The notes under the pieces were generated by a model. The model was not told the origin of the DNA. It was given only the letters and a program-made list of their open reading frames with translations, and did not search any database. The position numbers and the translations under genes were made by a program. Below, piece by piece: positions 9,660-30,156 of a stretch of 64,000 nucleotides of DNA (position 1 is its first letter; each line of letters begins with the position of its first letter). The stretch is taken from contig NC_017075.1 in NCBI RefSeq assembly GCF_000284255.1, forward strand, positions 3,162,001-3,226,000, given 5' to 3'. This DNA is from Rubrivivax gelatinosus IL144 (GTDB lineage: Bacteria; Pseudomonadota; Gammaproteobacteria; Burkholderiales; Burkholderiaceae_C).

Positions 9660-10562
9660 ATGGAAGACACTGACCGAATCCCCACGGGGCCGGCCCGGCC
9701 GACCTGGCTTCAAACGTTCGCGCTGGCGATCGTGGTGGTGCTGTTGCTGCGGCTGGGGATCGCCAGATTCGTCCCGCCGGCCGACGTGCCAGCCGCCAAC
9801 GACCTCGCCTTCTGGGCCTTCCCCGCCTTGGTCGCGCTGCGCTGGATGGCATGGCTGCCCGAGGGCCGGCAGCGTGCGGCGCGAACCAAGCGCTCGCCGT
9901 GGGTGCGCATCGCCGTCCTGCTGATCCCCGGGGAGTTCGTCGGACTGTGCCGATGGCTGGCCGTGACCGCCGGGGGCTGTCTGAGCTGGATGCTGCGGCG
10001 TCCGCCGCCTCCGCGACCGCCGGGCCGCCCGATCGAGGATCGCCGCAAGGGCGTCTACGACGGCCTCATGGTGCTCAACCTCGTCTCGTTCGTTCCCGAG
10101 ATCCCCATCAGCCTGGTGCTGCTGTCATCGGTCCAGGGTCACCTGCTCGTGCACGTACTCGTGCATACGGCCGAAGTCCTCGCCATCGTCCTGCTGCTCG
10201 GTGACCGCTGGCTCGTGCGGGCCGGAGGGCACGTGCTGACCCGCACGCATCTGGACTTGCGCGTCGGCGCCCGTGCCGCCGCGCGCCTGCCCATCGAGGA
10301 CATCGCGCATGCCGAACGGCTCGACAAGAAGACCAGCTATCGCGCCTGGTGCCGCAGCCACGGCACCGTGCTGCGCGAGACAGGCGTCATCAGCGTCTTC
10401 GACGACCCGAACCTTGTCCTGTCGATGAGGCCGGGTGCCGCACTGTGCTGGACGCGCTTCCAGTTCGAGCGACCGCTGCCGCGGCACCTGTTCGTCTACG
10501 TCGACGATCCGGCGGCGCTCATCGGGGCGATCGAGGAAGCGAAACGCTCGACACTCGATTAA
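9660..10562 (+). CDS. Membrane protein of unknown function
   Basis: A 300-residue protein with about four to five hydrophobic segments: near residues 18-35 (FALAIVVVLLLRLGIARF), 48-62, 82-110, 135-160 and 165-180. A soluble C-terminal part of about 110 residues follows. No family is recognised. The C-terminal region with AHAERLDKKTSYRAW and FDDPNLVLSMRPG might be a PH-like fold, a weak guess only. Its stop lies 4 bases before the island's left direct repeat, so it is the last chromosomal gene before the island. Confidence 0.75.
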   Translation: MEDTDRIPTGPARPTWLQTFALAIVVVLLLRLGIARFVPPADVPAANDLAFWAFPALVALRWMAWLPEGRQRAARTKRSPWVRIAVLLIPGEFVGLCRWLAVTAGGCLSWMLRRPPPPRPPGRPIEDRRKGVYDGLMVLNLVSFVPEIPISLVLLSSVQGHLLVHVLVHTAEVLAIVLLLGDRWLVRAGGHVLTRTHLDLRVGARAAARLPIEDIAHAERLDKKTSYRAWCRSHGTVLRETGVISVFDDPNLVLSMRPGAALCWTRFQFERPLPRHLFVYVDDPAALIGAIEEAKRSTLD

Positions 10563-11551
10563 CTGCCCCGGAGGGACTCGAAGAGTTGCCTAAAGCGTTG
10601 TCGGCGCTTGGTTTTTTCCGCGGGCGGCCGGAAATTTGTTCCCCAGGGCGTTCCCCCGTCGGGAAAGTTACAACTCGGAGGACTCGAACTGGGGTCCGAG
10701 CGGGGCGAGGAGCGGAGGCTGGGCTCAGTCCCCGAGGCTTGCGACAGCGTCAACGAGACGGGCTTGGAAGTCGATCCGGATGGTACGCCGGAGCGGTGCT
10801 CCAGCGGGATCGCGGCCCGCGCGGCGTCACTGGTCATCTGCGCGGCCACGAGTCGCTCGGCGTAGCCGTCGGCCCGGTTGGCCTCGATATTGACCACCAG
10901 GCCGTGACGGTTGTCGGTCTTGACGTGGCCCATGTAACTCGGGAGCGCTGGCGCCGCATCGCCCTTGCGGTACAGCTTGGCCTGGGGGGCGGTGCGCGAT
11001 GCTTGGGTCTCGTTGCTGCGCGGCCCGCCGTGCCTGTTGTTTGGCGGCAGGCCGTCATCGCTGCCGTCCTTGCGCGGCACGCTCTTGTGGCTGGCCCAGG
11101 TCTGGAGCAGCGTGCCGTCGAGGCTGAAGCGCTCGCACGAGAGCAGCCCGCGCGAGCGCCCCATCTCCACCGTCGCGTTGAACTGTTCGGTCGCCACGTC
11201 GTGCTCGATGAGCCGGCCGCGGTTCTTGCTGAACACTGAATGGTTCCAGACCGCATCCTCGATGGACAGGCCAAACGGCAGGTTGCAGGAGATCTGCTCG
11301 ACGAGCTGTCGCGCGCTGCGGATGCTGTAGAGCACCTGCAGCAGCATCGAGCGCATCAACTTCTCCGGCGCGATGCTTGGGCGCCCGCCCTTGATGTCTG
11401 CCTCGTACATCGCCGAGAACCGCGAGTCCATCTTGGACAGGGCGTCGTTGATCCACAGCCTGATCGGGAGCAGCGGGTGGTTGGCCGGGACGAAGTCATC
11501 CAACTTCACCGTGCTGGACAGCGATTCGTTGTGGCCGCCGGCGCCTCGCAT
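10559..11551 (-). pseudogene. IS5-like (DUF772/DDE_Tnp_1) transposase, 3'-truncated
   Basis: Residues 1 to about 235 match the IS5-type transposase pattern: VKLDDFVPANHPLLPIR, RPSIAPEKLMRSMLLQVLY, IEDAVWNHSVFSKNRGRL and the first catalytic Asp region FSLDGTLLQTWASHKS. After about 10840 homology stops. The second catalytic motif (GADKAYD) and the Glu motif (EEAFGW) are absent in all three frames, and the remaining roughly 90 codons are unrelated sequence running to the island's left repeat. The element is therefore dead and was cut by a recombination or deletion. The upstream end probably lies near 11630. The reading frame is open to 10559 only by chance. Confidence 0.75.
10567..10582 (+). repeat. 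Left direct repeat, candidate att site
   Basis: CCCGGAGGGACTCGAA, identical to bases 30087-30102 within the tRNA-Arg gene and in the same orientation. Similarity extends leftwards as CTGC with one extra C. It lies 4 bases after the stop of the membrane-protein gene. Because this motif is the conserved tRNA T-arm sequence, chance origin from another tRNA cannot be excluded. Confidence 0.55.
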
Positions 11552-18216: not shown

Positions 18217-19116
18217 TCACCCCATCCCCCGCGTCCCCTTGCACCCCGGATAGTCGACACAGCCCCAGAAAGCCGCCCCGGCGCTCGCACCGCGCTTGGC
18301 GACGCGCCGCACCATGCGCTTTCCGCAGACTGGGCAGTTCGGCCGCTCGTCGCCATCCCGCTGCACGGGCGCTGAAGCGACGGGAGTCACTGGCGTCTGC
18401 AGCGACGGCTCCTGCCTCGCAGTCTGCGCGCCCCCTCCCCTCGCCTTCTGGATCAGCTGCCGCAACCGCGGCCCGTCGACCAGTTCGACGTTGCGCCCGC
18501 TGGCGAAGCGCCGCGCCTCGTCGGTGAAACGCCCCGAAGTCACGACGAAGCCGCCGGCCGCGCCCCTGGCGGCCATGACGCCGTACAGCTCGCGCACCAC
18601 GTCGACGCCCACCTTGTAGGCACGCCACTGCTTGCACTGCACGAGGTACTTCTCGCTGCCGTTCTGGCCCGGCCGCGACAGCACGAGGTCGACCCCGCCG
18701 TCGGCACCACCGCCGCCGGTCTCGACGACGCGGAAGCCCTGCAGCCGGAAGCCCTCGCCGACCAGCATCTCGAACTCGCGCCAGCTCATGCCGTCGAGCG
18801 CATCGGCCGACGGGTTCTGCGCCACTTCCGCGGCCAGGCGGCTGCGCTGGCGGCGGCGCCATGCCGAGATCGCGGCGCCCATCAGGCTGAGGAACGGAAG
18901 AAGGTACTGCCCGAACCAGGCGAAGGTCTTCCACATCGTCCGGGTGGCCATGGCGCCGTATTGGCCCACCTCGGTGGCGACCGGCACGGCCTGCGTCGCA
19001 ACGGGATGCAGCAGCAGATAGAACAGCGGCGCCGCGATCACGCCCACCCACCAGGGCATGAGCGCGAACAACTCCATCACCGCCTCCGCGAGGCCTCCTT
19101 GGTTTCGCCTGGCCAT
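18217..19116 (-). CDS. Membrane-anchored Mrr-type restriction endonuclease with C4 zinc finger
   Basis: 299 residues. Two N-terminal hydrophobic segments (WWVGVIAAPLFYLLL; YLLPFLSLMGAAISAW) are followed by an Mrr-cat domain at about residues 110-220. It has MSWREFEMLVGEGFR, GGVDLVL with the catalytic Asp, and YLVQCKQW with the QxK motif. A basic linker leads to a C-terminal topoisomerase-type C4 zinc ribbon (CPVCGKRM ... CVDYPGC). The ATG at 19116 follows GGGAGAAAC. Such proteins cut DNA, often modified DNA. Membrane tethering suggests action on incoming DNA, an inference. It stands next to island defence-like cargo. Confidence 0.85.
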   Translation of the reverse strand: MARRNQGGLAEAVMELFALMPWWVGVIAAPLFYLLLHPVATQAVPVATEVGQYGAMATRTMWKTFAWFGQYLLPFLSLMGAAISAWRRRQRSRLAAEVAQNPSADALDGMSWREFEMLVGEGFRLQGFRVVETGGGGADGGVDLVLSRPGQNGSEKYLVQCKQWRAYKVGVDVVRELYGVMAARGAAGGFVVTSGRFTDEARRFASGRNVELVDGPRLRQLIQKARGGGAQTARQEPSLQTPVTPVASAPVQRDGDERPNCPVCGKRMVRRVAKRGASAGAAFWGCVDYPGCKGTRGMG

Positions 19117-19494
19117 TTCGTGTTTCTCCCTGCGCCGATTCTGGCGCGCGGAAACCGGCGCAAGCGCCTGCCGCACCTGCGGCCGTCGTCCCATCCGCCG
19201 AGGCGGATGGCAGCCATTTGCTGGCGCTCAGCCTATCCTGCCATCCAACTCTTTCGGCCTCTGTCTCCTCTCTGTGGACCGGCTCGCACATGCCGGTGCG
19301 GCCCCGCGTTCACACCCATCCACGGGGTCGGACAGTCCGACCCCGCCGCCTGAATCGACCACCCGCAGGCGGCGGCTGGCGACGCACAAGGCGTCGAGAA
19401 CGCTGGCGGAGCCGTCGCGCCGACGGCCGACCGGCTGCACCGTCGCCGCCCCAGACGCTGGCAAGATCGCCGCAAAGAACGAGGGAGGCTGCGC
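19117..19494. other. Divergent intergenic region with a perfect palindrome
   Basis: 378 bases between the divergent mrr-like gene and the MazG/PIN fusion gene. No gene is seen. It must contain promoters for both directions and includes the palindrome at 19323-19345. Confidence 0.5.
19323..19345. promoter_or_regulatory. Perfect 23-base palindrome, candidate operator
   Basis: CGGGGTCGGAC, one central A, then GTCCGACCCCG: an 11-base perfect inverted repeat. It lies between two divergent promoters, so a repressor site controlling both genes is plausible. A one-base centre makes it less likely to be a terminator. Confidence 0.4.
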
Positions 19495-20718
19495 ATGAAC
19501 GTGTCCGAGCTGCAGGCCGAGTTGCGCCACTTCGCCGCCGAGCGCGACTGGCAGCCGTTCCACACGCCGAAGAACCTGAGCACGGCGCTGTTGGTGGAGG
19601 CGGCGGAGCTGGCCGAGATCTTCCAGTGGATGACGCCCGAACAATCGGCCCGCGCCCACGAGGACCCCGCCGTCAAGCAGCGCATCGGCGAGGAGGTGGC
19701 CGACGTGCTGCTCTACCTGCTGCAGCTGGCCGACCACAGCCGCATCGACATCGCGCAGGCGGTGAAGGACAAGCTGGCGCTGAATGCGGCGAAGTACCCG
19801 CCCCGGCACACGATCGCGCGCATCCCGCCGGCACGGGCCGCGGCGCCCGGGCCGCACGTGCTGGTGGACTACGAGAACGTCCAACCGACCGAAGGCGAGC
19901 TTCGGGAACTGGTGCCGGGCGCCGGCCAGGTCTGGGTCTTCCACGGGCCCCATCAGCACGAGGTGGACCGCCGCTTCGCGTCCTTCGGCACGAACGCGAC
20001 CGCGGTGCCGATCAGCCGGCCCGGCAAGAACGCGCTGGACTTCCACCTGTCGTTCTACCTGGGCTACATCGCGTCGCGGAACCCCGGCGCGCCGATCGTC
20101 GTGGTGGCCAACGACAAGGGCTACGAGCCGATGATCGAGCACGCGCGGGGCATGGGCTTCGCGGTGCAGCGGCTGGCGTATGGCCAAGTCAAGCCGGCGG
20201 CGTCAAACGCGGAGCCACCAAGCCCCGCAGCCAAGCCCGCAGCGAAGAGCGCACCCGCGAAGAAGGCAGCGGCCAAGAAGGTGCCGGTGAAGAAAGCAGC
20301 ACCCAAGACGGCCGCTGCAAAAAAGGCTCCGGCCAAGAAGGTAGCGGCGAAGAAGGCCACGGCCGCGAAGAAGACCGCTGTCGCAACGGCGAGCGGAACG
20401 CCAGCGACTCAGAAGGCCGATTTGCCCGTCGGGGCGGAGTCAGCCAAGCGGGCCGGCGTTCCAGAAAAAAGGACGAAGCCCGCAAAGGCGTCGAGCAGCG
20501 CCCTGCAGACGATGGAAAGGCTGTCCAACAGCCTGCGCAAGATGGGCGACAAACGGCCCACCAAGCTGCCGTCGCTTCGGCGATCGCTGAAGTCGTTCTT
20601 GGGGGTCGACGCGACTGACGATGCGGTCAGTGCGGCGTTGAACGGCTTGGTGGCGGCCGGTGTGGTGCAGGTTGATGACGGTGGTCGCGCGTCGTATCCA
20701 AGCTTCGGCGGCGCGTGA
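19495..20718 (+). CDS. Fusion: MazG-like pyrophosphohydrolase + NYN/PIN-like nuclease + lysine-rich tail
   Basis: 407 residues. Residues 1-105 form an all-helical dNTP pyrophosphohydrolase domain of the MazG/dCTPase type, with acidic motifs EAAELAEIFQW (E35, E38, E41) and EEVADVLLYLL (E67, E68, D71). Residues 120-230 form a PIN-like NYN nuclease domain with the acidic triad in VLVDYENV (D125), ALDFHLSFYLG (D182) and VVVANDKGYEPM (D207). Residues 240-310 are a histone-H1-like tail of AAKK/PAKK repeats. Residues 335-407 form a small helical, winged-helix-like end. Such a fusion would combine nucleotide-pool cleansing with RNA or DNA cutting on a polynucleotide-binding tail. It heads the modification/defence block. 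Confidence 0.85.
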   Translation: MNVSELQAELRHFAAERDWQPFHTPKNLSTALLVEAAELAEIFQWMTPEQSARAHEDPAVKQRIGEEVADVLLYLLQLADHSRIDIAQAVKDKLALNAAKYPPRHTIARIPPARAAAPGPHVLVDYENVQPTEGELRELVPGAGQVWVFHGPHQHEVDRRFASFGTNATAVPISRPGKNALDFHLSFYLGYIASRNPGAPIVVVANDKGYEPMIEHARGMGFAVQRLAYGQVKPAASNAEPPSPAAKPAAKSAPAKKAAAKKVPVKKAAPKTAAAKKAPAKKVAAKKATAAKKTAVATASGTPATQKADLPVGAESAKRAGVPEKRTKPAKASSSALQTMERLSNSLRKMGDKRPTKLPSLRRSLKSFLGVDATDDAVSAALNGLVAAGVVQVDDGGRASYPSFGGA

Positions 20719-20972: not shown

Positions 20973-21269
20973 TTGGTATACATCGACGACGCCGAAGTGG
21001 CGAAGCACGGTCGAAACTGGTTCCACTTGACGGCGGACAGACTCGATGAGCTTCATTCTTTTGCGGCTTGCATAGGACTGCCCGCCAACGCCTTCCATCG
21101 CGGTGCACGCCATCCCCACTACGACGTCACTGCTGCTCAGCGGCTGCGCGCCCTTCGTGGTGGTGCACGTGCCGTTAGCTCCCGAGAGGTAGTCCGGATT
21201 GCAAGAATAGTTCGCGCATCCGCGCGTGCTGCCGCAACGAGCGACAAGCAACTTACCCTGTTTGAGTAA
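20973..21269 (+). CDS. DUF4031 family protein
   Basis: 98 residues from a TTG at 20973, supported by GAGGAGGGG just upstream. It fits DUF4031: VYIDDAEV at the start, WFHLTADRLDELHSFA in the middle, and HPHYDVTAAQRLRALRGGA. The biochemical role is unknown; the conserved Asp, His and Tyr hint at a small nucleotide- or metal-handling enzyme. It sits 14 bases before the thymidylate-synthase-like gene and likely shares its transcript. Codon use is AT-richer than the chromosome. Confidence 0.75.
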   Translation: MVYIDDAEVAKHGRNWFHLTADRLDELHSFAACIGLPANAFHRGARHPHYDVTAAQRLRALRGGARAVSSREVVRIARIVRASARAAATSDKQLTLFE

Positions 21270-21283
21270 AGCGTCTAGGCCAA

Positions 21284-22309
21284 GTGTACGTCTGCGCCGA
21301 CTCCCTAGACGACCTCTTGGCCAGGGTCTACCGACAGCTTCTGACCCGCGGCACTTCCATTGAGCCTACAAAGGGCTCGGCGCGCGAGATCTATGGGGCA
21401 TTGCTGAAGCTTTCGGCGCCGCGCCTGCGGCTTTCCCGCACCGAATCGCGCGGCCTACTTTTCAGCTGCCTCGGCGAACTTCTCTGGATACTAGCTGGAA
21501 GCAATGCGTTGGATTTCATCGCGTACTACATTCCCGAGTACGCAAAGTCCTCCGATGACGAGCAGACCGTCTTCGGAGCGTACGGCCCCAGAATGTTTGG
21601 CACCGGGCCAAACGAGCAGTTAGCGCGCGTAATCTCGTCCCTGAAGAGCAAACCGGATTCACGCCAGGCGGTGATCCAACTTTTCGATCGCCACGACATA
21701 CTAGAGTATCACCGCGACATCCCATGCACATGCACCCTGCAGTTCGTGATCCGAGATCGACGGCTGCATATGCTTACGTCAATGCGATCCAATGATGCCT
21801 GGCTCGGTTTGCCGCACGACGTATTTGCGTTCACTATGGTCCAAGAGCTTGTGGCGAGATCCCTGGGCGTCAAGTTAGGTGAATATCGGCACTTTGTCGG
21901 CAGCCTGCATCTCTATAAACGAGATGATAAGAAGGCTATTCGCTATCTCGATGAAGGTTGGCAGCCCCGGAAACCCATGCCACCGATGCCGCAGGGCGAC
22001 CCATGGCCCTCCGTTCGCACGCTTCTTGAAGTCGAGGAAGCAGTGAGGAATGGCGACGCAAGCCGCACGGATCGCTTCGATAGCATGGCTCCTTATTGGG
22101 CCGATCTCGCAACGCTTTTGGACATTCACAGAACCTTTAAGACAAACGGCAATCAAAACGACATTAGACGACTAAAAAGGCACTTGAAGCACGACGGTTA
22201 CGCCATGTACATCAACAAGCGCTACGGAATGGCGTCCTCAATCAAGGAGCAGGCGACGATCTTCGATCGCAGCAACGAAGCATCAAAGGCGCGACATGAA
22301 CGCACATGA
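21284..22309 (+). CDS. Thymidylate-synthase-family pyrimidine (hydroxy)methylase
   Basis: 341 residues from the GTG at 21284. The ThyA fold is clear: ELLWILAGS (residues 65-73), nucleophile Cys148 in DIPCTCTLQF, phosphate- and base-contact motif MRSNDAWLGLPHD (R168, S169, D171) and HLY (H209, Y211). At the position of E. coli ThyA Asn177, which recognises uracil, this protein has Asp179 (GLPHD instead of GLPFN). In T4 dCMP hydroxymethylase that position is Asp, so dCMP rather than dUMP may be the substrate. It could make 5-hydroxymethyl- or methyl-dCMP; hmdUMP is the alternative. Its end overlaps the next gene by 14 bases. It is not the housekeeping thyA. Confidence 0.85.
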   Translation: MYVCADSLDDLLARVYRQLLTRGTSIEPTKGSAREIYGALLKLSAPRLRLSRTESRGLLFSCLGELLWILAGSNALDFIAYYIPEYAKSSDDEQTVFGAYGPRMFGTGPNEQLARVISSLKSKPDSRQAVIQLFDRHDILEYHRDIPCTCTLQFVIRDRRLHMLTSMRSNDAWLGLPHDVFAFTMVQELVARSLGVKLGEYRHFVGSLHLYKRDDKKAIRYLDEGWQPRKPMPPMPQGDPWPSVRTLLEVEEAVRNGDASRTDRFDSMAPYWADLATLLDIHRTFKTNGNQNDIRRLKRHLKHDGYAMYINKRYGMASSIKEQATIFDRSNEASKARHERT

Positions 22310-23216
22310 AAAGGAACAGCGAGCTTTTGAACTGGAGGCTCAGCTTATCCAGTTCCACCGGCGCGCCATACCGCTGCCCGGCGTAGTCCCGCCGGAAAAC
22401 ATGCTTGCCTTTGTCGCCCAGCTTATCGACAGCATTCATCGTGTTGAGTTCGTTCGCACCGTCAGAGATCGCCACGTCAGTGTTGCGCGCGCGGACCCGA
22501 AAAGCCCGCTCTTTGACCCTATCAGGGCGGCCATCACTCTGTCTGCAAAACAGACGGAAGAGGCCTTCTGGCTCGTATTCTTGGCCACTCACTGCGGCCG
22601 CAACCTTCGGACCGCTTGGCAACTCGCAGCCGAGCTTTATGGATCCTCAGAACTTGTGCCGTGGACGTGGGCGCGTGTCTTGGTCGATCCCAAGTCCTAC
22701 ATAGACTGGATTGAGGGTCACTACGAGACGTTTGGAGGAAAATTCGGCAACCACCGTAAGTACGAATCGCTTAAGCCAGGCCCCAAGGGGACTGGCGCTA
22801 TCGTCCGAAGCTATGTCGACTGGATTGCCGGGTATGGGTCTCACGCCGCGATGGTGGGTCAGGCCCGGGCCCATGCTGACGGCAATGCGCGTCGCGCCTT
22901 CGGTGTGCTTTATGAGCAGATGCGTGCGGTTCTCCGCTTCGGCCGAACAGGCCGCTTTGACTACCTCACCATGCTTGGCAAGGTTGGGCTAGCTGATATT
23001 GAAGCGGATTCAACGTATATGAACGAAGCAACGGGGCCAAAACGCGGCGCAAAACTCCTGTTCGACGGCCAAATCGACTCCAAAACCCGAGCCAAGACCT
23101 TGGAGGCGCGCGTAGCCGTACTTGAGCGCCATCTCGGTGTTGGCATGCAGGTCATGGAAGACGCCTTGTGCAATTGGCAGAAGAGCCCGAATAGTTATCG
23201 GCCTTTCCGGGGCTAG
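22296..23216 (+). CDS. Alpha-glutamyl/putrescinyl thymine pyrophosphorylase clade 3 (aGPT-Pplase3) homologue
   Basis: 306 residues. Conserved patches that I associate with aGPT-Pplase3 are FVAQLIDSIHRVEFV (39-53), SPLFDPIRAA (70-79), EEAFWLVFLATHCGRN (88-103), KFGNHRKYESL (149-159), GTGA then YVDWI, and RFGRTGRFDYLTMLGKVGL (214-232) with STYMNEATGP. The family was predicted from comparative genomics to have a DNA-glycosylase-like helical fold. It is thought to replace a pyrophosphate on 5-hydroxymethylated pyrimidines in DNA by an amine. Translation overlap with the thymidylate-synthase-like gene couples base hydroxymethylation to this step. The family call is from memory of the motifs; activity is unproven. 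Confidence 0.78.
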   Translation: MNAHEKEQRAFELEAQLIQFHRRAIPLPGVVPPENMLAFVAQLIDSIHRVEFVRTVRDRHVSVARADPKSPLFDPIRAAITLSAKQTEEAFWLVFLATHCGRNLRTAWQLAAELYGSSELVPWTWARVLVDPKSYIDWIEGHYETFGGKFGNHRKYESLKPGPKGTGAIVRSYVDWIAGYGSHAAMVGQARAHADGNARRAFGVLYEQMRAVLRFGRTGRFDYLTMLGKVGLADIEADSTYMNEATGPKRGAKLLFDGQIDSKTRAKTLEARVAVLERHLGVGMQVMEDALCNWQKSPNSYRPFRG

Positions 23217-23219
23217 GAC

Positions 23220-24296
23220 CTACCAGGACCAAGAGTATCGCTTCTTTAGGAAGTTCAACTTATCTTGGCGCACCAACCCCCGGTACTGCAATTGCCCCAC
23301 TAGGATTCCGGGGGAGATAGACAAGTTCTTCGCAAATCTCATGATACTCCGGTAATCATGGGGCAGCGCTCGCAAGGCTGCCTCTTCGGATGCAGGAACA
23401 AGAACTTGGCCAGCGAATTGATTTGCCTCACGCTCCGCAAGATCATCAATATCAGGTCGATCAGAAGATTCAAGGAAGAGCCGATCTTCATGAAGAATCA
23501 AGTGACCCGCCTCGTGGAAGAAGGTGAACCAAAAGCTGTCGTCCCGTAGGTATCGGACGCTCAGTTGTATTATCGCCTTGCCATTACAAAAGCGGGCAGC
23601 GCCGCTGGCTGGGCAGCCCCTTGGCGCGCGGACGATGACAACCGCCACACCGCATGCGGCACATTGTTCCTGCAGCCGAGGCGTGAACTCAATTGGCTCT
23701 CGAACACGAGTTAATGGCTTCAATAAAGGCAGTAGACGCTCAAAATGGTGACGTGACCATGAACCCACGGGCAATTCGGCAGCCGTGAGTTCACCCTGTC
23801 GGAGCCACGCGGCAAGCGACGCCGATTGGGCGGCAAAGACCGGCGAGGTGCGATAGGCCGTAAGGCCGGCCCCATCCGAAAGCCATACGTCGCGCCACTC
23901 GTCAACGGTTTCGACCCCGAAAAACTCTAAGACGCGCCGAAGTCTTTCGCTAGGCGAAGTTGCGGCCTTCAGCCATCCATACGTGACCATGTCCGCGAAC
24001 GGAAGACTCGATAGCCATTGCCTGCCGTCGTCCTGCAGCGTTTGAAGATCGCGACGGTATTGAGCCTCGCGGGCCAGCCAAAAATGCACGCTTGCTCCAA
24101 CAACATCCGCCAGGCGCTTCGCGCGAGCGGCCGTGATGTGCACTTTTCCGTTGAAGAGCTGGGTGACGTCCTCTCGGGCCACCCCTAGCGCCTGCGCGAT
24201 GTCGTCGACTCGTAGGTTCTTCTTGGCGGCAAGCTGCCGCACCGTCTCACCCGGAGGCGACGCCCAGGCAGGGCGGAAGTCGCCGGACCGAGTCAT
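23220..24296 (-). CDS. XRE-type HTH / ImmA-IrrE metallopeptidase protein (HigA-like antitoxin)
   Basis: 358 residues. The N-terminal XRE helix-turn-helix (LRVDDIAQALGVAREDVTQL, about 28-47) has the HigA-like continuation. A C-terminal ImmA/IrrE zinc peptidase has FFHEAGHLILHEDR, with HEAGH at 261-265, followed by EREANQFAGQVLVP, which supplies the third ligand. ImmA proteases cleave repressors; XRE-ImmA proteins also act as antitoxins. Its ATG overlaps the stop of the HigB-like gene (ATGA), giving a toxin-antitoxin pair. It ends 3 bases from the convergent aGPT-Pplase3 stop. Confidence 0.88.
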   Translation of the reverse strand: MTRSGDFRPAWASPPGETVRQLAAKKNLRVDDIAQALGVAREDVTQLFNGKVHITAARAKRLADVVGASVHFWLAREAQYRRDLQTLQDDGRQWLSSLPFADMVTYGWLKAATSPSERLRRVLEFFGVETVDEWRDVWLSDGAGLTAYRTSPVFAAQSASLAAWLRQGELTAAELPVGSWSRHHFERLLPLLKPLTRVREPIEFTPRLQEQCAACGVAVVIVRAPRGCPASGAARFCNGKAIIQLSVRYLRDDSFWFTFFHEAGHLILHEDRLFLESSDRPDIDDLAEREANQFAGQVLVPASEEAALRALPHDYRSIMRFAKNLSISPGILVGQLQYRGLVRQDKLNFLKKRYSWSW

Positions 24297-24625
24297 AGGC
24301 CGCCTCCTATATGGATCACCTTTAGCCTAGTGACTCGGGCCCAGTCGACAGCTTCGCCGTTGATCGGGACTTGATGGTGATTCACCTCGCAGTAGAGGTG
24401 TTGCCCTTCGCTGAGGTGGAACCGTATCAGACCCACCTCCTGGTCGCAGTTCTCAATTTCCAAGCCCATCTCCACCACCTCTGCGACCGTTTCGGCAGCC
24501 TCCAGATCGGCGAGGTGCCTCCGCAAAGCAGCTGCGGCGCGATCCCCAAACTCACGCTTTGCCCTTGCGGGGCTCTCGCACGTGGAACGCAGCTCCTTGG
24601 ACCGAAAAGCGATCTCTAGCCCCAT
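24293..24625 (-). CDS. HigB/RelE-like toxin
   Basis: 110 residues from the ATG at 24625, chosen because the family begins with a short beta strand (here LEIAFRSKELRSTCES). An in-frame ATG at 24652 is possible. The pattern AKREFGDRAAAALRRHLADL, YCEVNHHQVP and WARVTRLKVIHI fits the HigB/RelE-like proteins often annotated as killer proteins, which are ribosome-dependent mRNA interferases. Catalytic residues are not clearly conserved by eye. It is coupled to the downstream XRE-ImmA gene, the expected toxin-first HigBA order. Confidence 0.7.
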   Translation of the reverse strand: MGLEIAFRSKELRSTCESPARAKREFGDRAAAALRRHLADLEAAETVAEVVEMGLEIENCDQEVGLIRFHLSEGQHLYCEVNHHQVPINGEAVDWARVTRLKVIHIGGGL

Positions 24626-24977
24626 TGGTCGATTGTCGGACAACAGCGCCATGCGCGTCGGGTGGTCGATCAAGAGGACTGACGGCAGGACCGGCGCGCC
24701 AGGAAGCTTGGAGCGGTGCCGCGGCCGACCGATGTCCCCTTCTGCCCTGGTAATGCCCGCTCCGGCCACGGGCGGTGGATCGTGCATTTCAGTGTGAAGT
24801 GAAGTTATTTCCTCGCCCGCCCCCGCCAGTCCAGGGCGGGCGCAGCCCGGCGCAGCGCACCCTTGACGGGCGGCGGCGTGCGCCCACGCTGGGCTCCGTG
24901 GGCAGGCGTGCGCGCCTGCCCACGAGCCCGTCCGGCGGCGAGGACCGCCCCGCCCTCGGGGCGGGGATGGGGGTGGG
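24626..24977. other. Intergenic region with strong hairpins between relaxase and toxin genes
   Basis: 352 bases. The half near 24780-24977 is very GC-rich with several inverted repeats: 24897-24924, and a CCCCGCCC/GGGCGGGG pair near 24948-24966 just after the relaxase stop. These may be terminators of the mobilisation operon or parts of a transfer origin. The promoter of the toxin-antitoxin pair should lie near 24640-24790. Confidence 0.45.
24897..24924. terminator. Perfect 12-bp stem, 4-base loop hairpin
   Basis: CGTGGGCAGGCG, loop TGCG, CGCCTGCCCACG. It lies 54 bases downstream of the relaxase stop on the minus strand. No T-run follows on either strand, so a classical intrinsic terminator is not certain; an oriT-type or regulatory hairpin is the alternative. 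Confidence 0.4.
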
Positions 24978-25988
24978 TCAACGCTCCCAGTCGATGTCCG
25001 GACGCGTGCGCGTCAGCTCCGGCTGCTGCGGCGTCCGGGTCGGCGCCCTGGCCTGCTCCCTCTGTCGGTCGGGCAACTGCTCCAGCCTCGGCAACAGCCG
25101 CCGGAACGCCTTCGAGTCCTTGAGGAAGCCCACGACCCCGTGGGCCAGCCGCCGGTCCTCGGCGGTGCCGGAAGAGCCGAGCGCCTGCGCAATGTGGATC
25201 CAGGCCTCCAGGGCGTCCCGGCGGCTGCTGTAGAAGCGCTCGCCACCAGGCTCGGCGATGTCGCGTCCAGGCAGGCGGCCGTCCTCGCGCATCTTCACGC
25301 GGCCGATCGGGCGGGCGCGGTGATGGGCGCCGCGCGTCGCCTGCCGTGTCGCCTCGGCCTCCACGCCGTAGCCGCGCAGCTTGTCGGCGAAGGTCTCGCG
25401 CCAGCGGTGCAGGTCGGCCTTGCGCGGGTTCAGCCGCCGGCCGTCGGCGGCCTGGGCGCGCACGCTCAGGTGCACATGCGGGTTGGCCTGGTGCTCGTGC
25501 AGCACCATCACGTAGCGGTGCCCGCGCAGTTCGGTCTGCGCGAACTCGCGCGCCGCGGCCTTGACGATGCGGGCGTCGGTGCCCTGCGGCATCGACAGCA
25601 TGAGGTTGAAGGCCTCGCGCCGGGGGCTCTCGTCGTCGATCTTCGCGCCGGCATGGCGCCACTGCTCGGCCAGGTCGTCCACGGCCTGGCGCCCGCGCCG
25701 CACGCTGCCGCGGTCGTCCTCGACGTCCAGCCGGCCGCCCTTGCTGATGTAGCGGAAGTGCGCCGCGATCGCGCGCATGCCGCGCCCGCCGCCCGTCACC
25801 TTGACCATGACCTGCGGCGCCCGGCGCAGCACCGTCGCCTCGATGCGCCGCCGGATGACGGCCGCCTTGCGCCGCGCCAGCGTGTCCAGCCGCGGCGTCG
25901 GCGGCACCTTGACGATGCGGTTGGGCGGGTAGAACAGCCGCTCGCCCCATTGCACCAGCGCGCCGTCGACGGTGGGGCCCGGGGTCAT
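24978..25988 (-). CDS. Relaxase/mobilisation nuclease (MobA/VirD2-like)
   Basis: 336 residues. It would nick oriT and lead the transferred strand. The N-terminal half carries VMVKVTGGGRGMRAIAAHFRY, a segment with ISKGGRLDVEDDRG, and the histidine motif HEHQANPHVHLSVRA (HxH metal ligands, about residues 160-175). The C-terminal third is basic and Pro/Arg-rich. The candidate nucleophilic Tyr is that of HFRYISKGG. Its ATG overlaps the MobC-like gene's stop by 4 bases. No VirB/Trb-type genes occur in the window, so transfer would need a helper element. Confidence 0.88.
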   Translation of the reverse strand: MTPGPTVDGALVQWGERLFYPPNRIVKVPPTPRLDTLARRKAAVIRRRIEATVLRRAPQVMVKVTGGGRGMRAIAAHFRYISKGGRLDVEDDRGSVRRGRQAVDDLAEQWRHAGAKIDDESPRREAFNLMLSMPQGTDARIVKAAAREFAQTELRGHRYVMVLHEHQANPHVHLSVRAQAADGRRLNPRKADLHRWRETFADKLRGYGVEAEATRQATRGAHHRARPIGRVKMREDGRLPGRDIAEPGGERFYSSRRDALEAWIHIAQALGSSGTAEDRRLAHGVVGFLKDSKAFRRLLPRLEQLPDRQREQARAPTRTPQQPELTRTRPDIDWER

Positions 25989-26560
25989 CGCCGCGCCCTC
26001 CGGCCCTGCAGGCGGGCGCTCAGTGCCGAGGCGATGGCCAGATGGCTCCGCACGTTGTGCGCCAGCACCGTCAGGTCCTCGCGATAGCGCTCCGCGGCCT
26101 CCGAGTCGGCCCGGGCCAGCGCGCGCAGGAAGGCGTTGAGGTCCACCGACATCGCGGCCAGGTTGTCGTTGGACGTGGCCAGTTCCAGCACGGCGATGCG
26201 GTCGTCGGCGGACAGCGACGTCGGGGCGCCGTCCAGCAGCGTCTCGACGTAGCGGCCTTGGGAAAGCTCCGCGGCCCGCGCGCGTTCGGCCAGCGCGGCG
26301 GCATAGGCGGGCGAGAGGCGCAGGGTCAGCTTGACGCTGCCGGCTCCGTGCGCCGTCTCGGCGGCACGTTCAGGCTCATGCGCACTTTCGGCGTCAGACA
26401 AGGCGTCGAGCACCGCACGCCGCACGATCGCCGCGGCACTCATCCCGCGCCGCGAAGCCTGCGCCTGCAGCCGTGGTCCCCAGCCGCGCAGGTCGACGGT
26501 GACGCGGTCCCGCGCTGGCGGCACGCGCTTCGCGGCGTCAAAGGGGCCGGCGCGCTTCAC
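25985..26560 (-). CDS. Mobilisation accessory protein (MobC/TraJ-like)
   Basis: 191 residues. The N-terminus (RDRVTVDLRGWGPRLQAQA, then RRGMSAAAIVRRAVLDAL) looks like a ribbon-helix-helix DNA-binding part. The middle segment SVKLTLRLSPAYAAALAERA resembles a second such unit, and the C-terminus (ATSNDNLAAMSVDLNAFLRA ... VLAHNVRSHLA) is helical as in relaxosome accessory proteins. Overlap with ParB upstream and relaxase downstream (both 4 bases) indicates one coupled operon. Confidence 0.75.
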   Translation of the reverse strand: MKRAGPFDAAKRVPPARDRVTVDLRGWGPRLQAQASRRGMSAAAIVRRAVLDALSDAESAHEPERAAETAHGAGSVKLTLRLSPAYAAALAERARAAELSQGRYVETLLDGAPTSLSADDRIAVLELATSNDNLAAMSVDLNAFLRALARADSEAAERYREDLTVLAHNVRSHLAIASALSARLQGRRARR

Positions 26561-27474
26561 GAGGAAGCTCCTCCGTCGTCGAGGCGTGCCGCCAGCTCAC
26601 CCAGCCGGCGCTTCAAGGCCCCGCGGGCTTCGGGCGACAGCGTCGAAGCATCGCCACTGGTCAGCCGCGAAAGTGCCTGATCCAGCCGCTCGCACAAGCG
26701 CTCTGCCCGGGACAGGAGCGGGCCGCCGTCATTCGAGCGCGACGGCCGGGCCGGCAGACGAGCAGACGCGGAAGGAACGGCGGCCCCCACCTCCCGCAAC
26801 TGCGCCACCGCCTCGCGCGTCACCGGCCCCGAACCTTCGAGTAATTGCGCCACCGCCTCCGGCCGCTGCGTGTGCAGCCTGCTCAGCTCGTACAGCGTGC
26901 GCGGCGAGGTGCAGCGGCCCGACTGCAGCGCCTCGTCCAGCGCGGGCGGCAGTTCCAGCAGGGCCAGGTGGTGCGCCACCGTCGTCAGGTCCATGCCCAG
27001 CCGCTGCGCCACCGTCGTGTTCGAGTCGCCGGCCTCGTTGCGCCCGCGGATGAAACGCGCCAGGTCCAGCGGCGTCAGGCCGTGGCGCTTCTGGTTCTCG
27101 GACACCTGGGCGTAGGGGTCGGCCGGTGCCGCGCGCACCACCACCGGCACCTGCGCCAGCCCGATGCGCTGCGCCGCGCGCCAGCGCTTGGCGCCGAAGT
27201 GGATCTTGTGGCGCCCCTGGTCATCGGCCGGGTGCACGACGATGGGTTGCAGCACGCCGTGGCGGCGGATGTCCTCGGCCAGCTCGTCCAGCTCGGCCGC
27301 CGGCAGCTCGGTGCGTGGGTTGTCCGGGTCCTCGACCAGGCAGTCGGTGGCGACGAAGGCCGGCCCGGCCGCACCCTTGCCCGGCACCGCCGGCTCAGCG
27401 GGCGCGACGGGCGCAGCCGGCGTGTCCAGCAAATCAAGCTGGACTTCGGCGGGTCGGGGCCAGCGCAGTCGCAT
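26557..27474 (-). CDS. ParB/RepB/Spo0J family partition protein
   Basis: 305 residues. The ParB/Srx nuclease-like domain has LVEDPDNPRTELPAAELDEL, a segment with IRRHGVLQPIVV, and a GAKRWRAAQRIGL box; ENQKRHGLTPLDLARFI and the HTH segment TVAQRLGMDLTTVAHHLALL follow. No ParA is adjacent. Single ParB-like proteins on mobile islands often act as regulators or stabilisation factors rather than true centromere partners. First gene of the parB-mobC-mobA operon. Confidence 0.88.
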   Translation of the reverse strand: MRLRWPRPAEVQLDLLDTPAAPVAPAEPAVPGKGAAGPAFVATDCLVEDPDNPRTELPAAELDELAEDIRRHGVLQPIVVHPADDQGRHKIHFGAKRWRAAQRIGLAQVPVVVRAAPADPYAQVSENQKRHGLTPLDLARFIRGRNEAGDSNTTVAQRLGMDLTTVAHHLALLELPPALDEALQSGRCTSPRTLYELSRLHTQRPEAVAQLLEGSGPVTREAVAQLREVGAAVPSASARLPARPSRSNDGGPLLSRAERLCERLDQALSRLTSGDASTLSPEARGALKRRLGELAARLDDGGASS

Positions 27475-28603: not shown

Positions 28604-29905
28604 TCAGGCGCCGCGGCCCGCCGCCTTCTTCTTGGGCCGCTTGCCCAGCGCCCGCCCGGCCGGATCCGGCTCGCCGCGGCGCAGGGCGTCCAGGTAGTCG
28701 GCCCACTGCACCATCATCGTCCGCCGCTGGTTCAGGAACTCGGCGCGGTCGTAGGCCGCGCCCAGCGGGCCGCTCTTCACGTGCGCGAGCTGGGCCTCGA
28801 TGACGTCGGGGTTCACGTTCAGCTGCTCGACGAGGATGGTGCGCGCCATCGCGCGGAAGCCGTGCGGCGTCATTTCGTCGTTGGTGTAGCCCATGCGGCG
28901 CAGCGCGGTGCGCAGCGTGTTCTCGCTCATGCAGCGCCGGTTGCTCAGCAGGCTGGGGAAGACGTAGACGCTGCACGCGCTGATCGGCTGCAGGTCCTGC
29001 AGGATCTCCAACGCCCTCGGCGCCAGCGGCACCAGGTGCGGCCGGCCGTTGAGCTTGCCGTGCACGGTGCGCTTCATCTTGGCCGCGGGGATGGTCCACA
29101 GCGCGCGCTCGAAGTCGATCTCGGCCCAGGCCATCTGGCGGATGTTGCCGGGCCGCTGGAACAGCAGCGCGGCCAGCTCCAGCGCGGCGCGCGTCAGCGG
29201 CTGGCCCTCGTAGGCGGCGATGGCGCGCATCAGCCGGGCGGCGCCGTCGGTCTCGATCACCGCGGCCATGTGCTTGACGATCACCGGCACCAGCGCGCCG
29301 TGCAGGTCGGGCGCCGGGTTGCGGTCGCAGCGCCCGGTGGCGATGCCGAAGCGGAACACCTGGCCGGAGGTCTGGCGCAGCGTGTGCGCGGTCTCGTGGG
29401 CGCCGCGTTTCTCGATGCGGCGCAGCGTGTACAGCAGCAGCGGCGCGGTCACGTCGCGCAGCGGCAGGCTGCCGATCCAGGGGAACAAGTCCTTCTCCAT
29501 GCGCTCCAGCCAGCGCGCGCCGTAGCGCGGGCTCCAGCCCGAGCGCTTGGTGGCGTGGAACTCGCGGGCCACGGCCTCGAAGGTGTCCTCGGCCGACACC
29601 TGCCGCGACAGCTTGTCGAGCCGGCGACGCTGCACGGGGTCGGTGCCGGCGCGCAGCAGCCGGCGGGCGTCGTCGCGCGCGTCGCGTGCCTCGCGCAGCG
29701 AGACCCTCACCTTCTTGGAGCCGACCTCGGTGTAGTGGCCCAGCGAGAGCCGCTTCTCCTTCTCCTGGAAGTGGTACTTCCAGAACCAGCGGCGCGAGCC
29801 GTTGGGCGTGACTTCGAGGTACAGGCCGCCGCTGTCGGAGAGGCGCACACGCGCCTTGTCGGGCGGGCAGGCCGCGTTGCGGCAGAGGGCGTCGGTGAGT
29901 GCCAT
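28604..29905 (-). CDS. P4-type tyrosine integrase (DUF4102 N-terminus)
   Basis: 433 residues from the ATG at 29905. N-terminal DUF4102 arm-binding domain (VRLSDSGGLYLEVTPNGSRR, WKYHFQEKEKRLSLGHY), core-binding domain, and a C-terminal catalytic domain. In the latter are the Arg near LLFQRPGNIRQMAW, the HGFRAMARTIL box (HxxR) and a later AQLAHVKSGPLGAAYDRAEF with the catalytic Tyr. The tail is basic (GKRPKKKAAGRG). It lies 174 bases from the tRNA-Arg 3' end, the classical arrangement for site-specific insertion into that tRNA. Confidence 0.93.
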   Translation of the reverse strand: MALTDALCRNAACPPDKARVRLSDSGGLYLEVTPNGSRRWFWKYHFQEKEKRLSLGHYTEVGSKKVRVSLREARDARDDARRLLRAGTDPVQRRRLDKLSRQVSAEDTFEAVAREFHATKRSGWSPRYGARWLERMEKDLFPWIGSLPLRDVTAPLLLYTLRRIEKRGAHETAHTLRQTSGQVFRFGIATGRCDRNPAPDLHGALVPVIVKHMAAVIETDGAARLMRAIAAYEGQPLTRAALELAALLFQRPGNIRQMAWAEIDFERALWTIPAAKMKRTVHGKLNGRPHLVPLAPRALEILQDLQPISACSVYVFPSLLSNRRCMSENTLRTALRRMGYTNDEMTPHGFRAMARTILVEQLNVNPDVIEAQLAHVKSGPLGAAYDRAEFLNQRRTMMVQWADYLDALRRGEPDPAGRALGKRPKKKAAGRGA

Positions 29906-30079
29906 GGGGGAACAAACTCCGCTTGGCGACACCCGATCATGCGCCTGTTCCCCCACTTGGACCCGGATAGGCCGCGGAATCAGTGAAACCATCCGCAACC
30001 GTTTTGGATCTCAAGTCCTTGTCCGGCGTGGACTTTTCGAACTTCCAGGGACTTCGCGGGACGCCCCGGAATCCTTGGG

Positions 30080-30156
30080 TGGCCTGCCCGGAGGGACTCG
30101 AACCCCCGACCTGTTGCTTAGAAGGCAACTGCTCTATCCAGTTGAGCTACGGGCAG
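30080..30156 (-). tRNA. tRNA-Arg (anticodon UCU)
   Basis: Read on the minus strand, acceptor CTGCCCG pairs with CGGGCAG, followed by discriminator G and an encoded CCA. D-arm GCTC...GAGC; anticodon stem TTGC/GCAA around CT-TCT-AA; T-arm with TTCGAGT. All stems pair well, so it is functional despite the island at its 3' side. Confidence 0.95.
30087..30102 (+). repeat. Right direct repeat within tRNA-Arg, candidate att site
   Basis: CCCGGAGGGACTCGAA, inside the T-arm/acceptor part of tRNA-Arg and identical to 10567-10582. Integration at this site would restore the tRNA 3' end on the integrase side and leave the other copy at the far end. Confidence 0.6.

Follow-up and report, generated by a model that had tools for sequence, protein, structure and literature searches.

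A recurring mobile gene cassette of bacteria with a predicted cytosine-hypermodifying pathway and a convergent ImmA/IrrE-type protease

What does an enzyme of the thymidylate synthase family do next to a putative base-hypermodifying protein on a mobile bacterial element? The question is raised by a three-gene operon in a 64,000-nucleotide window (the whole stretch of DNA analysed here) of Rubrivivax gelatinosus IL144, positions 3,162,001 to 3,226,000 of NC_017075.1, a 5.04-Mb single-contig genome. On the forward strand, the operon encodes a 98-residue DUF4031 protein with a TTG start (20973-21269; PF13223, E = 4.9e-27), a 341-residue ThyA-fold enzyme (21284-22309; PF00303, E = 1.5e-23) and a 306-residue protein of alpha-glutamyl/putrescinyl thymine pyrophosphorylase (aGPT-Pplase) clade 3 (22296-23216), with a 14-base gap after the first gene and a 14-base overlap between the other two. 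These reading frames, their spacing and their Pfam families are as described in an original prediction, made from the sequence alone, that proposed a pyrimidine-hypermodification module in a mobile element. The profile search that it suggested matched the 306-residue protein to PF18746 (aGPT-Pplase3) far above the curated cut-off (E = 8e-91; 304.7 bits against 25), and the protein also belongs to ADDT, “Amino acid:DNA transferase” (PF18724; E = 1.5e-84; 283.8 bits against 26.2). With moderate confidence in the explanation as a whole, we propose that the operon belongs to a mobile, defence-like cassette that makes a modified cytosine, attaches an amino acid or amine to it and carries a protease arm.

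Composition and distribution of the recurring unit

The recurring unit consists of the ThyA-like gene, the aGPT-Pplase3 gene (referred to below as the transferase gene, after its predicted activity), a convergent gene for a helix-turn-helix (HTH)-ImmA/IrrE protease and a HigB-like gene; DUF4031 and a uracil-DNA glycosylase (UDG)-fold protein are optional. The protease and HigB-like genes (23220-24787) are the most constant neighbours of the operon and had no place in the original prediction. Both lie on the reverse strand of the window: an XRE-type HTH fused to an ImmA/IrrE metallopeptidase that retains HExxH (23220-24296; PF06114, E = 2.3e-10, and HTH_31/HTH_3), whose stop codon is 3 bp from that of the transferase gene, and a small HigB/RelE-like protein (24293-24787), assigned by matches of its profile, A6, to RelE/ParE-type proteins.

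A search with the transferase returned 3585 relatives at E <= 0.001, of which 120 were listed. Relatives were present in 8 of 72,556 plasmid records and in none of 50,697 phage records. We analysed seven of the eight plasmid records (H6, the remaining one, belongs to a sister strain of H5), the best 80 of 206 relatives in a scan of genome contigs, and 25 loci on IMG/VR viral contigs. Cassette parts were counted with custom profiles at loci selected by likeness to the transferase, ignoring kinship. All four genes were found at 77 of the 80 genome loci (ThyA-like 79, protease 79, HigB-like 78), at 22 of the 25 viral-contig loci (25, 24 and 22, respectively) and on five of the seven plasmids (7, 7 and 5). 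Two of the genome misses (L042 and L086) and the viral ones are located at the ends of contigs; L085 has no recognizable ThyA-like gene, and the HigB-like gene is missing from two Rhizobiaceae plasmids. On all seven plasmids the ThyA-like gene lies upstream of the transferase gene, which meets the protease gene tail to tail. At the genome loci, the median distance between the convergent stop codons is 0 bp, and in 75 of 79 cases the distance lies between -30 and +60.

Near copies are present in this set (L094/L095, L101/L102 and L024/L092, for example), but the median end branch in a tree of 105 transferases is 0.44 changes per site. Record titles of the genome loci name Pseudomonadota, Bacteroidota, Acidobacteriota, Chloroflexota, Planctomycetota, Gemmatimonadota and Verrucomicrobiota, to which the plasmid loci add Actinomycetota and Spirochaetota, nine phyla altogether. 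PF18746 is nevertheless rare in evenly drawn genomes, with 3 carriers among 369 in the class and 4 among 398 in the phylum, own genome counted. Three of the five other carriers in those draws hold the cassette, a fourth has the protease and HigB-like genes at the edge of a contig, and the fifth has a lone divergent gene. At L140, a lone divergent aGPT-Pplase3 relative has no other cassette gene within 12 kb. A single cassette gene is split into two open reading frames (ORFs) at each of L010 (a Leptospira plasmid), L017, L020 and L028, and two genes are split at L046, so that decayed copies are not rare.

The original prediction had expected DUF4031, the ThyA-like enzyme and aGPT-Pplase3 to recur together. 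The pairing of the last two is upheld; DUF4031 is a recurrent accessory, detected by phmmer at 27 of 80 genome, 3 of 25 viral-contig and none of the seven plasmid loci, and was rejected as a core part on the genome count. The other optional protein has a predicted fold of the uracil-DNA glycosylase superfamily; its gene is absent from the window and from 48 of the 80 genome loci, and a search of the R. gelatinosus genome for the family, run without a positive control, found none.

Predicted chemistry of the two core enzymes

In a sequence search of the PDB, the nearest solved relative of the window’s ThyA-fold enzyme was MilA, a cytidine monophosphate (CMP) 5-hydroxymethylase (E = 1e-51), with the best thymidylate synthase at 5e-19. 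According to excerpts of PMC5175136, cytosine is selected over uracil by Asp instead of Asn, and deoxyribose over ribose by Ser and Arg instead of Ala and Lys; excerpts of PMC6400193 connect hydroxymethylation with an acidic residue, Asp or Glu, at the third position ahead of the catalytic Cys, a position held by Leu in thymidylate synthases. The window enzyme carries Asp145, Cys148, Ser169, Asp179 and Arg127 (own numbering). In the 109 cassette enzymes that remain after exclusion of six loci whose genes are split or missing, the Cys, the Ser and the cytosine-type Asp (the T4 Asp179 position) are invariant; Arg is found in 103 and Lys in 6, and the position three before the Cys is Asp in 68, as in the window enzyme, Glu in 30 and another residue in 11. 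As controls, the host ThyA has Leu and Asn, and gp51 of phage PaMx11 has Asp and Asn. Taken together, the proximity to MilA and the diagnostic residues make the window enzyme most likely a deoxycytidine monophosphate (dCMP) 5-hydroxymethylase, an assignment in which we place high confidence.

A thymidylate synthase forming dTMP is not indicated, as the window enzyme has Asp and Asp in place of Asn and Leu and, at 76.8 bits, falls short of the NCBIfam cut-off of 327; a role as the host’s thymidylate synthase was likewise rejected, the canonical enzyme being encoded elsewhere in the genome (E = 4.3e-125). With T4 dCMP hydroxymethylase and MilA, the cassette enzyme shares the Asp for base recognition and the Asp/Glu three residues before the catalytic Cys. 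It differs from both in its setting, which is a bacterial mobile cassette and neither a lytic phage nor an antibiotic cluster, and from MilA in having Ser and Arg where MilA has Ala and Lys, the deoxy rather than the ribo signature.

Two observations concern genes beside ThyA-fold enzymes. On a Geobacillus plasmid (L122), a pair of ThyA-fold genes, of which one carries the cytosine-type Asp, stands next to PqqD, phosphotransferase, Nudix and ABC-transporter genes, a row that is perhaps a nucleoside pathway. At two Bacteroidota loci (L051 and L060), the ThyA-like gene is preceded, at 9 or 25 bp, by a gene that on inspection by eye resembles a Nudix hydrolase; such an enzyme would suit chemistry in the nucleotide pool.

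The second core enzyme is predicted to have a DNA-glycosylase-type fold of the helix-hairpin-helix kind. VIA-align, on which all our fold matches rest, tentatively placed it closest to a PUGT-type glycinyltransferase; a PDB sequence search with the transferase alone and with profiles A2, A5 and A6 gave nothing useful. PUGT (gp46 of Pseudomonas phage PaMx11; PDB 8z2n and 8z2m) is a 5-phosphomethyl-deoxyuridine glycinyltransferase of the aGPT-Pplase clade 2 type. Because a glycinyltransferase is the closest solved fold, transfer of an amino acid suits the cassette protein better than the label “pyrophosphorylase” under which it was originally described, and the protein is probably an amino-acid or amine transferase. 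Transfer probably takes place on DNA, a point we make slightly less firmly, given that DNA glycosylases and a phage DNA glycinyltransferase have this kind of fold.

The comparison with PUGT has its bounds: PUGT is a phage gene product without significant sequence similarity to the cassette transferase, and it acts on a phospho-thymine base made by a kinase, whereas no kinase is seen here and the first enzyme looks cytosine-specific. The original prediction had also remarked on the missing base kinase, and four PaMx11 proteins, including gp49 and gp50, used as phmmer queries (E 0.01), matched none of the ORFs collected from the loci, in what is a weak single-sequence test. We take gp49 and gp50 to be the 5-hydroxymethyl-deoxyuridine DNA kinase of that phage.

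The protease/HigB-like pair and the role of the cassette

HExxH is present in all 111 full-length cassette proteases, and the window protease matches the PADLOC model PD-Lambda-2_B at 3.1e-27. For the HigB-like gene, comparison with homologues suggests an ATG near 24625 as the true start, giving a protein of about 110 residues. Pfam, PADLOC and NCBIfam gave no match to it; profile A6, however, hits five non-cassette relatives at 61 to 34 bits, three annotated as RelE/ParE and one as a killer suppression protein. The HigB-type CHxL motif is kept by four of these five outsiders versus 2 of 107 cassette copies, and its loss in the other 105 leads us to think that activity resides in the protease, with the HigB-like protein as its partner.

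As excerpted, PMC9519451 describes PD-lambda-2 as an abortive defence system whose HigA-peptidase is toxic alone and rescued by a HigB-like neighbour. Its components are a HigB-like protein (A), a HigA-ImmA/IrrE protein (B) and a third component (C). The adjacent HigB-like and HTH-ImmA/IrrE genes are common to both systems; in the cassette, the pair is instead partnered by convergent base-modification genes. Among five window proteins only the B model was matched (PADLOC, E 0.1), neither A nor C being detected, and no PADLOC model matched the HigB-like partner in the A position in any of 15 copies checked. By analogy, the pair might form an abortive arm, a proposal that we consider evenly balanced.

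Relatives of the protease occur in 56 plasmid records, eight of which also hold the transferase. In six inspected from the remaining 48, two had the relative beside multi-ubiquitin/ThiF genes (one of them also near type I restriction-modification genes), one, without a partner, beside a cyclase-E2-TIR operon, one beside type I restriction-modification, DUF262 and Fic genes, and one beside a restriction-modification specificity subunit; the sixth had no obvious defence genes nearby. Given these varied neighbours, the pair seems to be a part that can be exchanged between defence loci, and its presence next to the operon makes defence the likeliest overall role, one that we favour somewhat over all others.

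The gene order and its recurrence, the active-site residues, the predicted folds and the mobile setting are the observed basis from which we infer all the reactions, what sets the system off, how the carrier benefits and whether the substrate is DNA or nucleotide. The ThyA-fold enzyme would convert dCMP to 5-hydroxymethyl-dCMP, and the modified cytosine would be incorporated into DNA or kept in the nucleotide pool. The aGPT-Pplase3/ADDT protein would then attach an amino acid or amine to the 5-methylene group, probably on DNA; where encoded, the UDG-fold protein may handle the modified base, with DUF4031 assisting. The protease, restrained by the HigB-like protein, would serve as an arm triggered by damage or infection, as in PD-lambda-2, and the carrier would most likely be protected from phages or rival elements. 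In a more specific version, which we regard as doubtful, the protease and its partner would read the hypermodified cytosine in carrier DNA, or its disturbance, as a self mark. The protease would be set free upon replication of foreign DNA that is unmodified or damaged, the mark would be edited by the UDG-fold protein, and no restriction nuclease would be involved.

One alternative does without a DNA mark. A modified deoxycytidine nucleotide could itself poison phage replication by blocking or corrupting it, with the UDG-fold protein, where encoded, turning incorporation into strand damage and the protease/HigB-like pair controlling release. The predicted first substrate is indeed a free nucleotide, no kinase was seen that would raise the dCMP product to a phosphorylated base in DNA, a UDG fold suits excision of an unusual base, and MilA supplies a nucleoside antibiotic. 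We nonetheless consider this unlikely, in view of the DNA-glycosylase-type fold of the transferase, its DNA-acting top match and the many genome loci that lack the UDG-fold gene.

The toxin-antitoxin-like character of the pair and the occurrence of the cassette on islands, plasmids and viral contigs would also suit an addiction module that keeps a mobile element in its host, base modification being protective and the pair harmful. Toxin-antitoxin pairs are, however, addictive without costly base chemistry, and relatives of this pair adjoin several unrelated defence operons, leaving addiction a rather poor candidate.

The pathway envisaged originally, phage-type hydroxymethylation of dUMP followed by amine transfer to thymine, draws on the name of PF18746 and the phage precedent, and 18 of 48 relatives match phrog_3271. 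It has become improbable, because the enzyme bears dCMP-hydroxymethylase residues: the uracil-selecting Asn, kept in gp51 and host ThyA, is replaced by Asp in every one of the 109 copies, and the phage records hold no match to the transferase. A secondary-metabolite pathway for a nucleoside antibiotic, to which the similarity to MilA and the Geobacillus gene row might point, is very improbable, as the recurring unit has no transporter and Ser (109/109) and Arg (103/109) stand where MilA-type ribose residues (Ala, Lys) would be expected.

Full-text searches of one library of papers found no description of the cassette or its cytosine chemistry, though the classical predictions of Iyer 2013 and Burroughs 2015 may well cover such neighbourhoods. 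In the excerpted text of PMC13092281, DefensePredictor lists an aGPT-Pplase system (Fig. 6F) as predicted to be defensive, without validation or a stated mechanism. It shares the domain family and the predicted role with the cassette, and its legend names HTH and UDG; likened by text and legend alone, it may or may not be the same cassette. If our proposal for the cassette is true, base hypermodification, known here from phages, would extend to mobile bacterial cassettes in nine phyla, cytosine hypermodification would be tied to an abortive-infection protease module, and an amino-acid transferase family named for thymine chemistry would gain a testable cytosine substrate.

The island and other carriers

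The mobile setting originally proposed for the operon is borne out by the genes beyond the HigB-like gene, all on the reverse strand: a relaxase (24978-25988; PF03432, E = 4.7e-10), a NikA-like mobilization gene (25985-26560; PF21983, E = 1.7e-4, below the Pfam cut-off), a ParB partition gene (26557-27474; PF02195, E = 8.7e-19) and a tyrosine integrase (28604-29998; PF22022, PF13356 and PF00589) next to a tRNA-Arg (tct) gene (30080-30156; ARAGORN), the probable attachment site. An exact 16-nucleotide copy of positions 30087-30102, in the 3' half of the tRNA, lies at 10567-10582, directly after an ORF ending at 10562, and is the probable left end. Together with the integrase beside the tRNA-Arg gene, this copy points to an element some 19.5 kb long (10.57-30.1 kb). 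Comparison of 1601 bases of the right flank with the genomes of 21 relatives revealed only scattered tRNA and gene matches and no empty integration site. G+C content is 0.61 and 0.56 in the two 2-kb bins covering the cassette, versus 0.70 in the adjoining bins.

Immediately upstream of the operon, the island encodes a MazG-like protein fused to PIN7 (19495-20718, forward strand), the MazG part of which could supply dCMP to the cassette. A Mrr-type restriction endonuclease with a zinc ribbon is encoded at 18217-19194 on the reverse strand; enzymes of the Mrr type can cleave modified DNA. MazG-PIN, Mrr, relaxase and ParB were rejected as core parts, having no blastp match (1e-8) among the ORFs of the other loci, where the integrase alone of these island genes was matched. 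The recurring unit holds no cognate nuclease of the kind that restriction-modification would involve: the Mrr gene has no such match at the other loci, and Mrr_cat turns up in 3 of 128 flanking ORFs.

A weak scan of the flanks of the loci, covering 128 of 413 ORFs by a longest-ORF rule without a control, placed integrase domains (five), Mrr_cat (three) and RT_UG17 (two) among the top 25 families, with AbiEii, SoFic, PD-T4-6, a methyltransferase and others found once each. On a Pantoea plasmid (L005), the cassette lies amid phage genes for portal, head and tail fibre. Near copies are found at two places (L101 and L102) on an IMG/VR contig of 118 kb; together these observations point to a phage-plasmid as carrier.
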